Positions 27,820 through 32,089 of a stretch of DNA of 64,000 nt are shown piece by piece (position 1 is the stretch's first letter; each line of letters starts with the position of its first letter). This DNA is from Acidobacteriota bacterium (GTDB lineage Bacteria > Acidobacteriota > Terriglobia > Terriglobales > Acidobacteriaceae). The stretch covers positions 1-64,000 of the forward strand of contig JABCZC010000020.1 of the NCBI GenBank assembly GCA_013289875.1, in the 5' to 3' direction. The notes beneath the pieces are model-generated. The model was given only the letters and a program-made list of their open reading frames with translations. It was not told the origin of the DNA and did not search any database. The position numbers were made by a program, and so were the translations under genes.

Positions 27820-27856
27820 GGTGGCCCATTCAAGCCCTGTGTTGGCTTGAGTGGGC
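27820..27856. repeat. Hairpin repeat upstream of the TIR gene (left copy)
   Basis: The arm CCCATTCAAGCC (27825-27836) pairs with GGCTTGAGTGGG (27844-27855), a 12-bp stem with one G-T pair and a 7-base loop. The same stem occurs once more, at 30502-30531, beyond the end of the TIR gene. The right edge lies one base from the GGAG that precedes the TIR gene, so the hairpin may influence its translation as well as ending the permease transcript. Confidence 0.75.
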
Positions 27857-27871: not shown

Positions 27872-30355
27872 ATGATTGGCAACCTCATGGTCCGCGTCTT
27901 CCTCTCGCATTCGAGCAAGGACAAGCCCTTTGCCCGCGACCTTGCCAACGCGCTCGAAGCCGGAGGCTACATCACCGTCTGGTTCGACGAGCACGAGATC
28001 AACTACGGTGACAACTCCGTCCTCAAGATGGAAGAGGGCCTCGACGCCGACGCCGTCCTGCTGATCCTTTCGCCCGACTCGGTCGAATCCAACTGGGTTA
28101 AAGAAGAGTGGACCGACGCCTTCTGGGATCAGACCAACACGGCGCGCATCAAGCTCGCTCCCGTCCTCCACCGTGATTGCCGGATTCCGCATTTCCTCCG
28201 CAACAAGAAGCCCTTCGACCTCCGAACCAACCAGACCGAAGGCTTCCGTGCGATCCGCACCTGGCTTCTCGGCCTGCGTCCCGCCCCGCCGCCGGTCGTG
28301 CACCTTCCCCAGCGCCCGCCGCTCTTCATTGGCCGCGAGCCGGAGATCGAAACCTTCCGAACTAGATTGAAAGACCCGGGATCGATTGCCTTTATCTCTG
28401 CCATCGCTGGAAGCGGCAAAACAACCCTGGCCCTCGAATATGCCCACCGCCACCAGCGCGACTACGAGTCCGTCCACTGGCTTCCATGCCAGAAAGAACG
28501 CAGCCTTGCACAGATTGCAGGTGAGCTTGCCTGGCAGCTTGGTCTGAAGCTTGAGGGCGATCTCGAGACCATAGTGCGCGAGCTCAACGGACATTGCGCG
28601 CGCAAGCGCTGCCTGCTGGTTTTCGATAACGTGGAGGACGATACGCCTGCCTCGCTGCTTCCGGGAGCGGGTCGCGCCTCGGTGCTCCTCACCACTCGCC
28701 GCACGACGCTGCCGTTCCTGCGCGGCTACCAGCCGGTGAAGCTGCCGCTGTTCACGGAAGAACAGTGCTTTGAACTCTTCGGCAAAGAGATCGGCGAAAA
28801 GGAAGTGGAGAAGCACAGACCCGAGGCGCGCGCCCTCTTCCAACGGTTGGAATACCTGCCCATCGGCATTGCTGTTACGGCAAGCCTCATCCGCGAGGAC
28901 GTGCGTTACACCATCGCAGGGATGGCGAAAAATCTTCCCGCGAATGTGACTGCATTGCTCAGGGAAGCCGTGGCCGCTCTCTCTCCGCAAGCTCAAACGC
29001 TACTGACCGCGATGGCTGCGTGCGCGCCGGAGGGCTTTCGTCTCGGCCTCGCAGCGCAAATCGCCGAACTTGACGAGACATCGTCCCTCGATGCCTTGCA
29101 GGAAATCCACTCGCGTTCACTGGCTGAAGAGCTGGACCGCGACGAACGCCGCTACCGCCTCCACGCGCTTGTCCGCAAAGCTGCCGGATCAACAGATCTT
29201 CAGCGGAGAAAGCACGCGGAATTGGTTCGAAATGAATTTGAGGGCGGGGAGACCAACTGGCGTCAGTGCGAAAAGGACATGGCTGACCGGCAAGCGGCGT
29301 TCGCATGGTTGCTGGACCATACCGAAGATGACGAAACCTGGTGGATGGCCAAGGGCATGGCATACGCGGGGTACGAACTCACTCGGCGGCTTGGGCGGCT
29401 GCCGGAAGCTTACGAGATCTGCGAACGGACGATCGAGGAGGCAAATCGCAGAAATGACCCGACAACGCTGCAGGCTTGGTACGGAAATCAGGCATTAATC
29501 CTGCGAGCTTGGGGACGTCTTGAGGAGGCCATGGCGCTGCGCAAGAAAGAAGAAGAGATCGGCTTGGAGTTAGGCGACCAGGATGGATTGAGCCGCTGCT
29601 ACGGTAATCAGGCAGTGATCCAGCAGATTTGGGGGCGTCTGGAGGAGGCGATGGCCCTGCATAAGAATCAGGAAGCCATCTGCGAGGAACTGGGCAACAA
29701 GGATGGTTTGCAGGCCAGCTACGGGAACCAGGCCCTGATCCTGAATTCGTGGGGCCGTCTGGAGGAGGCGATGGCGCTGCACAAGAAGGAGGAAGCCATC
29801 TCCGAGGAACTGGGCAACAGGGATGGTTTGCAGGCCAGCTACGGGAACCAGGCTCTGATCCTCCAGTCGTGGGGCCGTCTGGAGGAGGCGATGGCGCTGC
29901 ATAAGAAACAGGAAGCCATCTCCGAGGAACTGGGCAACAAGGATGGTTTGCAGCGAAGCTACGGGAACCAGGCGCTGATCCTGAAGTCGTGGGGCCGTCT
30001 GGAGGAGGCGATGGCGCTACTAAAGAAACAGGAAGCCATCAGCGAGGAACTGGGCAACAAGGATGGTTTGCAGCGAAGCTACGGGAACCAGGCGTTAATA
30101 CTCGTATCTTGGGACCGCCTTGAGGAAGGAATGGAGCTGCTCCAAAAGAAAGAAGCCATCTGCCTTGAACTGAGCACGCCACGCGAATTGGCATACTGCT
30201 ACTGGGGCTGGGAGCTGCTGGCGCGGAAACAAGGTGACCGCAAAACTGAAAAAGCGAAACTGGGGCGAGCGCTCGCCCTCTTCACCGAGCTCGGGATGTC
30301 CCGCCAGATCGAAGCCGTCCAGGCCGAGCTGGACGAGACGAACCGCAACACCTAA
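27872..30355 (+). CDS. TIR-NB-ARC-TPR protein, NLR-like candidate immune sensor
   Basis: 827 residues. Residues about 5-130 are a TIR domain: VFLSHSSKDKPFARDL, VWFDEHEINYGD, and SNWVKEEW, whose second Glu (about 79) fits the NAD+-hydrolase catalytic position. About 150-440 are an NB-ARC/STAND ATPase: IGREPEIE, P-loop AIAGSGKTT (about 178-186), Walker B CLLVFDN, LLTTRR, LPIGIAV (GLPL-like) and RLHALV in the MHD position. From about 480 to 800 there are TPRs, including six 40-residue units. The family is known for ligand-triggered oligomerisation and NAD+-directed toxicity in antiphage defence; that role here is inferred. ATG 27872 has GGAG 11 bases upstream; ATG 27887 is an alternative. Confidence 0.9.
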   Translation: MIGNLMVRVFLSHSSKDKPFARDLANALEAGGYITVWFDEHEINYGDNSVLKMEEGLDADAVLLILSPDSVESNWVKEEWTDAFWDQTNTARIKLAPVLHRDCRIPHFLRNKKPFDLRTNQTEGFRAIRTWLLGLRPAPPPVVHLPQRPPLFIGREPEIETFRTRLKDPGSIAFISAIAGSGKTTLALEYAHRHQRDYESVHWLPCQKERSLAQIAGELAWQLGLKLEGDLETIVRELNGHCARKRCLLVFDNVEDDTPASLLPGAGRASVLLTTRRTTLPFLRGYQPVKLPLFTEEQCFELFGKEIGEKEVEKHRPEARALFQRLEYLPIGIAVTASLIREDVRYTIAGMAKNLPANVTALLREAVAALSPQAQTLLTAMAACAPEGFRLGLAAQIAELDETSSLDALQEIHSRSLAEELDRDERRYRLHALVRKAAGSTDLQRRKHAELVRNEFEGGETNWRQCEKDMADRQAAFAWLLDHTEDDETWWMAKGMAYAGYELTRRLGRLPEAYEICERTIEEANRRNDPTTLQAWYGNQALILRAWGRLEEAMALRKKEEEIGLELGDQDGLSRCYGNQAVIQQIWGRLEEAMALHKNQEAICEELGNKDGLQASYGNQALILNSWGRLEEAMALHKKEEAISEELGNRDGLQASYGNQALILQSWGRLEEAMALHKKQEAISEELGNKDGLQRSYGNQALILKSWGRLEEAMALLKKQEAISEELGNKDGLQRSYGNQALILVSWDRLEEGMELLQKKEAICLELSTPRELAYCYWGWELLARKQGDRKTEKAKLGRALALFTELGMSRQIEAVQAELDETNRNT
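29462..30181 (+). repeat. Six tandem 120-bp TPR-encoding units
   Basis: Units start at 29462, 29582, 29702, 29822, 29942 and 30062, each exactly 120 bases (40 codons). The outer units are diverged and the inner ones nearly identical: units 3 and 4 differ at 8 of 120 positions by my count. Variation clusters at codons for the residue before the conserved SWG (N, Q, K, V), the AS/RS pair and the HK/LK pair. Each unit encodes YGNQALIL, WGRLEEAMAL and a Glu-rich helix ending EELGN. Confidence 0.9.
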
Positions 30356-30498
30356 CCCAATTGAGTGCGCTCCGCTGTCAAGCCCTCCGTCCCAATGGTT
30401 TCCCGCAACCCATTGACTGCCAGTTGCTTACCCTCGCTGGACCTTGGCCGGCTATTTCCCCAAACCCGCTAGAATAGAAATAGAGACTCACCCGAGGG

Positions 30499-30532
30499 TG
30501 CCCCATTCAAGCCCGGTTTTGGCTTGAGTGGT
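30499..30532. repeat. Hairpin repeat downstream of the TIR gene (right copy)
   Basis: The head GGTGCCCCATTCAAGCC and the arm GGCTTGAGTGG (30521-30531) form an 11-bp stem with a 7-base loop (CGGTTTT). The stem is the same as that of the left copy at 27820-27856. Together the two bracket the TIR-NB-ARC-TPR gene. The head matches the wider GGGTGCCCCA hairpin family in this window. Confidence 0.75.
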
Positions 30533-30548
30533 TGCCGGGATCAGATCG

Positions 30549-30568
30549 GCCCGCCTTGGCGGGCTTTT
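30549..30568 (+). terminator. Rho-independent terminator
   Basis: GCCCGCC (30549-30555) and GGCGGGC (30558-30564) form a perfect 7-bp GC stem with a two-base gap, followed by TTTT. A two-base loop is tight, so the real loop may include the closing pair. It would end transcription coming from the TIR gene 190 bases upstream and separate it from ftsQAZ. Confidence 0.75.
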
Positions 30569-30871
30569 CATCTCTGCCTGAAAGGAGGCCAATCCCGTCG
30601 GCAGGTCAAGCCCCCCGGCGCAAACTCCAATGATTTCAACGACAGAACTGCAAGCCTCGCAGAATCAATGACCGCCCATTACTCCAATGCGCTCTATGAT
30701 GTAACCGAATCTCTTGTAGAATCAATGATTTCCCCAACAGCTACTACCGTGAAACTCAATTAGAATGAATGATTTACACGCCAACCCGGAGAAACAAGGG
30801 GGGAGGGGGTACACCATGATTCCTGAATAGTCGAACTTCGCCGCTGACCTCAACCGGCCGATGGCTAATGG

Positions 30872-30912
30872 CTGATCCCTGATCCCCGAATTCCTGATCC
30901 CTGTTCCCTCCC
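30872..30912. repeat. CTGATCCC-type tandem repeat
   Basis: CTGATCCC is repeated with variants (CTGATCCCC, CCTGATCCC, CTGTTCCC) just upstream of ftsQ. It is related to the TCCCTAA run at 2994-3020. There is no coding potential. Confidence 0.5.
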
Positions 30913-31000
30913 TTGATTCCCCCCGGCAATTCACCCGCCGGTCCACAGGCCACCGCAGGCTATAGTCGGAGACGGCGACTCTCTCACGACCTGCTCGGCC

Positions 31001-32089
31001 GTGGCGAAAACTGAAGCACCAACAAGCCGTGGGGCCACTATCGTCGAAGACGACGAACAATTTCTGCGCCCCGCCTCTCGATCGCGGATCGGCTGTGACC
31101 TCGCGCCCGATCGCCTCGCCGCAAAGGTGCTCGAGAAAGCTGTCGACAACGTCGGCGAGAACGGCGACGACCAGGCCTTCCTGCGCACCCGCCGCCGGGT
31201 GCCCGTCCGCAAGGGCATCCTGCCCAACTGGGCAAAAACTCGCTGGGGACGCATCCTCCTCCTGATCTCCGCCCTGCTCCTGCTCGCCGGAGCCGTCTGG
31301 CTGGCCATCGCCGTCCGCGATTTTCTCAATCACGACCCACGCTTCCGCATCGACACCGCTGCCTCGATCCAAACCATCGGAAACAGCCAGCTTACCCGCG
31401 AAGACCTGCTCTCCGTCTTCGGCTCGGACATCGGCCGCAACGTCTTCTTTATCCCGCTCTCCGAGCGCCGCACCGAGCTGCAACGCATTCCCTGGGTCGA
31501 ACACGCGACCGTCATGCGCCTTCTGCCCAACCAGCTGCGCGTCGCCGTGCGCGAGCGCACTCCCATCGCCTTTGTCCGCGTCCGTGACCAGGTGAAGCTG
31601 GTCGACGCCGCCGGAGTCATCCTCGACATGCCTCCAGCCATGATGGTCGCCCGCCACTTCTCCTTCCCGGTCGTCGCCGGTATCAACCCCAACGATCCGC
31701 TCTCCCTGCGTGGGCCTCGAATGCGCATCTACCAGAAGTTCATCGCCGACCTGGACTCGAGCGGCGAGAAGATCTCCTCCGACCTCAGCGAAGTCGACCT
31801 GTCCGACCCCGAAGATGTCCGCGCAACCCTACCCGCCGGAGCCACCGACATGCTGCTCCACTTCGGCGACGATAAGTTCCTCACCCGCTACCGGACGTAT
31901 CAGGCACATCTCGCCGAGTGGCGGCAGCAGTATCCGCATCTGGCCTCGGTCGATCTCCGCTACGACACACAGGTAGTGCTCAAGATGGCCGATGGCCAGC
32001 CCGTGGACGCCGATCCCCAGCCTGCACAGCAGGCCCCGCGCGATGCTTCCGCCGTGCCCCGCAAGCATGCCGGAAAGGTGACGCGATGA
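31001..32089 (+). CDS. ftsQ: Cell division protein FtsQ
   Basis: 362 residues from a GTG start. A long cytoplasmic N-terminus (about 1-80) is followed by one membrane helix (ILLLISALLLLAGAVWLAIAV), the POTRA domain (IQTIGNSQLTREDLLSVFGSD, NVFFIPLSERRTELQRIPWV) and the FtsQ beta domain (LPNQLRVAVRERTPIAFVRV). The C-terminal tail beyond 330 is Pro/Ala/Gln-rich. It scaffolds the divisome with FtsL/FtsB. Its stop overlaps ftsA (ATGA). Confidence 0.93.
   Translation: MAKTEAPTSRGATIVEDDEQFLRPASRSRIGCDLAPDRLAAKVLEKAVDNVGENGDDQAFLRTRRRVPVRKGILPNWAKTRWGRILLLISALLLLAGAVWLAIAVRDFLNHDPRFRIDTAASIQTIGNSQLTREDLLSVFGSDIGRNVFFIPLSERRTELQRIPWVEHATVMRLLPNQLRVAVRERTPIAFVRVRDQVKLVDAAGVILDMPPAMMVARHFSFPVVAGINPNDPLSLRGPRMRIYQKFIADLDSSGEKISSDLSEVDLSDPEDVRATLPAGATDMLLHFGDDKFLTRYRTYQAHLAEWRQQYPHLASVDLRYDTQVVLKMADGQPVDADPQPAQQAPRDASAVPRKHAGKVTR

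Follow-up and report, generated by a model that had tools for sequence, protein, structure and literature searches.

Whether a single gene that joins a TIR domain, an NB-ARC ATPase and a TPR array can act as a complete immune receptor is the question raised by this locus, which the original prediction read as an NLR-like antiphage receptor. This interpretation is probably right: fold, conservation, effector swapping and the precedent of the tested TIR-NLR support the anatomy, the catalytic glutamate, the reading as a one-gene system and a mechanism like that of NLRs, and the antiphage role itself is inferred. The window (the whole 64-kb stretch of DNA that was analysed) belongs to a 5.05-Mb assembly of 184 contigs from a soil bacterium, which its relatives place in the Acidobacteria. 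The gene, its domains and motifs and the hairpins beside it are given on the forward (+) strand. The gene (27872..30355) encodes 827 aa from the ATG at 27872. Its mechanical open reading frame opens at GTG 27851, and the ATG at 27887 may, from sequence comparison, be an equally plausible start, because the homolog at locus L105 begins at a Met aligned with it. The frame is uninterrupted over the 827 aa and its GC content equals that of the window (0.599).

The 827-aa protein matches the Pfam families TIR_2 (1.1e-25), NB-ARC (7.4e-15) and TPR_12 (1.4e-11). The AlphaFold2 model of all 827 residues has a mean pLDDT of 86.7, with low confidence at residues 41-51, and recovers the TIR, NB-ARC and TPR folds, in line with the three-part architecture first proposed; for all three domains, Pfam, AlphaFold2 and the structure search agree. 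In the Foldseek search the top PDB match for the full model is 6mfv, a STAND protein with TPRs (E 1.2e-14), and the matches that follow include the plant TNL resistosomes RPP1 and ROQ1, CC-type resistosomes and Apaf-1.

The TIR domain comprises residues 7-134 (27890..28273) and matches solved TIRs in fold. Modelled alone it has a pLDDT of 78.7, and its structure alignment gives Z scores of 17.8 for the SPARTA TIR, 15.4 for RUN1, 15.1 for AbTir and 14.5 for SARM1. The putative catalytic glutamate, identified by alignment, is E79 (28106..28108), the second E of NWVKEEW, as originally proposed. It is invariant in six aligned TIRs, as well as across the three full-length homologs, and aligns with a Glu in each of three bacterial TIRs of known structure, AbTIR, PdTIR and 9m0n. 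E79 thus occupies the place of the catalytic Glu of TIR domain NADases (S-x-W-x-x-x-E region), and NAD+ cleavage is predicted from the sequence.

The NB-ARC domain extends over about residues 145-345 (28304..28906), with fold matches to 6mfv, RPP1, ROQ1 and Apaf-1. The motifs that had been named for it are all found, and their key residues are invariant in ten STAND proteins: G180, G182 and K183 in the P-loop region AIAGSGKTT (residues 176-185, 28397..28426), L248 and D252 in the Walker B motif LLVFDN (residues 248-253, 28613..28630), and H431 in the MHD-like LHAL (residues 430-433, 29159..29170). The P-loop has Ala in place of the first Gly of GxxxxGK. The sensor R, R276, is invariant over the same ten proteins and completes the STAND switch motifs.

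The bacterial STAND receptors Avs and bNACHT (summarised in PMC10907252) have an effector-STAND-TPR sensor layout, which the window protein, likened to them by layout, has in common with them, with NB-ARC and TIR as its own modules. Plant TNPs (TIR-NB-ARC-TPR), compared by domain order, share the order found here. Bacterial TIR-NB-TPR proteins have been noted earlier, and their similarity to plant TNPs is in the NB domain, not in the TIR or the TPR (PMC9806590). The closest tested system is the TIR-NLR of an E. coli P4-like satellite (PADLOC PDLC03015), likewise a one-gene TIR-NLR, which blocks phages in E. coli (PMC9122126); the PADLOC model was equated with the tested gene by their shared name. 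The window protein shares its single-gene TIR-NB-ARC/TPR architecture with the PADLOC TIR-NLR. Residues 13-190 match positions 1-185 of the 824 in the TIR-NLR profile (7.9e-12), that is, the TIR and linker only, and nothing past position 185 matches; the protein would work in the manner of the tested system but is not a full-length match to its profile. The sensor of the window protein therefore differs from that of the tested system: its NB/sensor part is diverged from the PADLOC TIR-NLR, and the satellite or prophage setting is lacking. A similar result is obtained with the 824-aa 'Tetratricopeptide repeat protein' of PDB entries 9m0n/9umd, whose N-terminal TIR aligns with window residues 6-185 (2.4e-11) and whose remainder has no significant match to the window protein. 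As its length equals that of the profile, it may be the PADLOC TIR-NLR protein.

The TPR part is a tandem array of units of exactly 120 bp, a feature that the earlier description did not mention. Six TPR units of 40 aa (120 bp) lie at 29480..30199 (TRF period 120, 86% matches), with DNA identities of 84-93% among the central four; the model of this part shows 8-9 helix pairs. The unit number differs between the proteins, with 6 in the window, 8 at locus L104 and 4 at L105. For 37 of the 40 units taken from seven proteins, the nearest unit by DNA belongs to the protein from which the unit itself comes; only the window's two edge units and the one complete unit in the L131 homolog depart from this. 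These own-protein nearest neighbours indicate, at the level of DNA comparison, that the units evolve in concert inside each gene, with copy-number change.

The differences that persist among the units are not spread evenly. The register was taken from the Pfam TPR_8 alignment, in which unit position p is TPR position p+3. TPR positions 2, 5, 9, 12 and 13, known as the ligand-contact and most variable positions (PMC1261162), correspond to unit positions 39, 2, 6, 9 and 10, which all fall on helix A in the model. Across the three TIR proteins, 27 of the 72 amino-acid changes lie at these five groove positions out of 40 (permutation p=1.5e-4), whereas the synonymous changes there number 5 of 51, close to the expectation of 6.4. 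The pooled pN/pS for the three proteins is 1.1 in the groove vs 0.35 elsewhere; by protein, the groove values are 0.66-1.35 for the window, 1.75 for L104 and 0.8 for L105, and outside the groove the value among the window units is 0.26. The same groove focus is seen in the NB-ARC or NACHT relatives at L130 and L133 and in the TPR-only protein at L132. Positive selection over the whole repeat was rejected, the overall pN/pS among units being below 1. Positive selection at the groove positions is suggested by these comparisons, not proved, because groove positions vary in TPRs generally (PMC1261162) and the ratio is near 1; for the same nearness to 1 in the window's own protein, its groove positions may be under relaxed constraint. 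Near-identical repeats whose variation falls chiefly on the presumed target-contact positions suggest pressure for change on an immune sensor.

The gene is rare among relatives. Eight congeneric genomes lack it, although several of these are near-complete, and full-length homologs were found in 2 of ~398 family genomes (L104, 40% identity, and L105, 38%). A fourth TIR homolog, L131 from an acidobacterial MAG, is interrupted by a contig end. This patchy distribution agrees with a gene that has moved horizontally or is easily lost. Carriage by phages or plasmids was considered and rejected: no full homolog was found in phage records, plasmids gave one match spanning most of the protein (24% identical, without TIR), a DNA search of plasmids with the TPR array came back empty, and IMG/VR gave two matches at the TIR level only. 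The source genome itself has 14 TIR_2 places in 5 Mb, several of them within open frames of 450-720 aa.

A contig search with the single protein returned no matches, and an alignment-based scan returned eight loci. The TPR type of the window recurs, with or without the same NB-ARC, behind a TIR at L104, L105 and L131, and in an Aminicenantes MAG (L134) it belongs to a SIR2_2-NB-ARC-TPR protein. TIR and SIR2 are NAD+-consuming defence effectors. An Anaerolineaceae MAG (L133:3880-7011) encodes a DUF4062-NACHT-TPR protein with the 40-aa TPR units of the window, in which one in-frame stop splits off the DUF4062. This domain is reported to act in phage defence as a NADase resembling TIR (PMC13174449). 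That one sensor type is combined with three NAD+-directed effectors is the strongest indirect indication of NAD+ loss as the outcome of activation. More distant NB-ARC-TPR proteins bear PNP_UDP_1 and Mrr_cat. The scan also yielded an NB-ARC-TPR protein in a Calditrichia MAG (L130:5446-7761) whose N-terminal domain, ~190 aa long, has no Pfam match and is possibly an undescribed effector. A Nitrospirae MAG (L132:5965-8070) encodes a protein made up of TPRs alone, with 13 or more near-identical units of 40 aa, directly following an apparent histidine kinase and an apparent response regulator of the sigma-54 type.

Upstream of the window gene lies a PadR-ADOP permease pair and downstream ftsQ-ftsA-ftsZ. 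The gene content just upstream of ftsQ-ftsA-ftsZ (30356-31001 in the window; loci L120-L127) differs among the congeners examined and looks variable. In the empty-site comparison each congener had a different region upstream of ftsQ, and the search for an ADOP ortholog gave none at the set threshold, so that no clean empty site could be demonstrated. A consensus scan places a terminator-like hairpin after the gene (30548..30565), a weak call since such sites are rarer than the chance expectation. The gene is flanked by two REP-like hairpins of the same orientation, one upstream (27825..27854, DNA fold z -4.8) and one downstream (30502..30531, z -2.3), of the form CCCATTCAAGCC-N7-GGCTTGAGTGG. 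This hairpin has 13 copies in the genome (<=2 mismatches) vs 0 for the reversed-pattern control, and two Y1 transposase genes are present in the genome. At L104:10680-11430, directly upstream of the homolog, a RAYT-like Y1 transposase has a copy of the REP of the L104 genome on either side; no REP hairpin flanks were found at L105. The window gene may be part of a cassette bounded by REPs, and the link between the REP elements and the gene is suggestive only, because REPs also cluster elsewhere in the genome.

PADLOC found no system among the 47 neighbouring ORFs of the window, only three isolated single-protein hits (PDC-M51B, mad2 and PD-T4-6), which agrees with the earlier statement that no other defence gene is adjacent. 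Around the homologs, 19 ORFs gave isolated hits only. None of the three scanned TIR-NB-ARC-TPR homologs (0/3) has recognised defence genes around it, and the possibility raised by the original prediction, that homologs might lie in defence islands, is not borne out by any of them; their neighbours are housekeeping genes, and a REP/RAYT element adjoins one of them. A defence island was thus rejected both for the gene and for the scanned homologs. This absence counts against the receptor reading, as do the partial match to the PADLOC TIR-NLR profile and the overall unit pN/pS below 1.

The solitary, non-defence setting, with PadR-ADOP upstream and ftsQ downstream, would also suit a regulatory or signalling STAND of the AfsR, MalT or FxsT type, in which the TPRs would respond to a peptide or metabolite, with the TIR as a scaffold or as the source of a signal for housekeeping control instead of immunity. 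The NB-ARC-TPR part indeed resembles FxSxx_TPR of the FxSxx-COOH system (FxsT, NF040586; 141 bits) and AfsR (NF053617; 63 bits), and the TPR fold also matches the peptide sensors NprR and Rap. Both family scores, however, are far under the curated thresholds (300 and 1430, respectively), and both assignments were rejected; FxsA/B/C partners were not identified near the gene. The protein has no DNA-binding domain and keeps the catalytic Glu, the gene has a patchy distribution and is missing from congeners, relatives have SIR2 or DUF4062 in place of the TIR, and the repeats are homogenised and variable in the groove, all of which make a regulatory role unlikely.

The repeat pattern bears on what the receptor would recognise. 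Fungal NLRs with TPR, ANK or WD repeats of high internal conservation likewise have near-identical repeats, copy-number differences and variation on the concave face (PMC4986451), and the window family resembles them in that its repeats are more alike within proteins (37/40) and its changes are concentrated at the concave ligand positions. The fungal case has allelic data and formal selection tests, whereas the present one has three bacterial homologs and a TIR effector. Since the cue of fungal NLRs can be allorecognition (PMC4986451), homogenised repeats with groove-focused change are also compatible with a receptor for non-phage non-self, such as plasmids, kin or contact-delivered toxins of neighbouring bacteria, comparable to the fungal heterokaryon-incompatibility NLRs. 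The tested bacterial STANDs described in PMC9122126, PMC9806590 and PMC10907252, on the other hand, detect or act on phage, and we regard a non-phage cue as rather improbable. A degenerate TIR-STAND left from horizontal transfer, to which the Ala in the P-loop, the solitary gene and the low-confidence residues 41-51 could point, is very improbable in view of the intact 827-aa frame with all switch motifs, the pN/pS of 0.26 outside the groove and the GC content of the window.

Altogether, the gene most likely encodes a one-gene immune receptor of the NLR type (STAND), whose TPRs would bind an intracellular trigger, whose NB-ARC would oligomerise and whose TIR would consume NAD+. For this receptor we infer NAD+ cleavage, oligomerisation, a phage trigger and cell death as follows. 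At rest the NB-ARC would hold ADP and keep the protein monomeric. Binding of the trigger, most likely a phage protein, by the C-terminal TPR superhelix would be followed by exchange for ATP, which would drive oligomerisation and gather the TIR domains, so that E79 could cleave NAD+. The loss of NAD+, or a product of the cyclic-ADPR type, would then arrest growth or kill the cell before phage release. The identical 120-bp TPR units would recombine within the gene, giving copy-number change, homogenisation and fast change of the sensor, with the groove-lining helix residues free to change or selected to do so. More tentatively, sensor diversity might arise here without a diversity-generating retroelement: recombination of the 120-bp units could spread, add or remove specificities under selection on the groove, the TPR cassette could have been joined to TIR, SIR2 and DUF4062 across phyla, and the Acidobacteriaceae gene may move or be lost via the flanking REP/RAYT elements.

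Receptors of the TIR-NB-ARC-TPR layout are already known in bacteria and plants. What sets this one above an ordinary member is a concertedly evolving, groove-diversified sensor that is common to several effectors and phyla. The effector swaps strengthen the prediction that activation of the sensor leads to NAD+ loss. Homogenised repeats with diversified binding faces are known from fungal NLRs, and the same pattern is now seen in a bacterial TIR-NLR and in homologs from several phyla, which makes it testable in a simple system whether recombination between repeats within the gene alters which phage is recognised.
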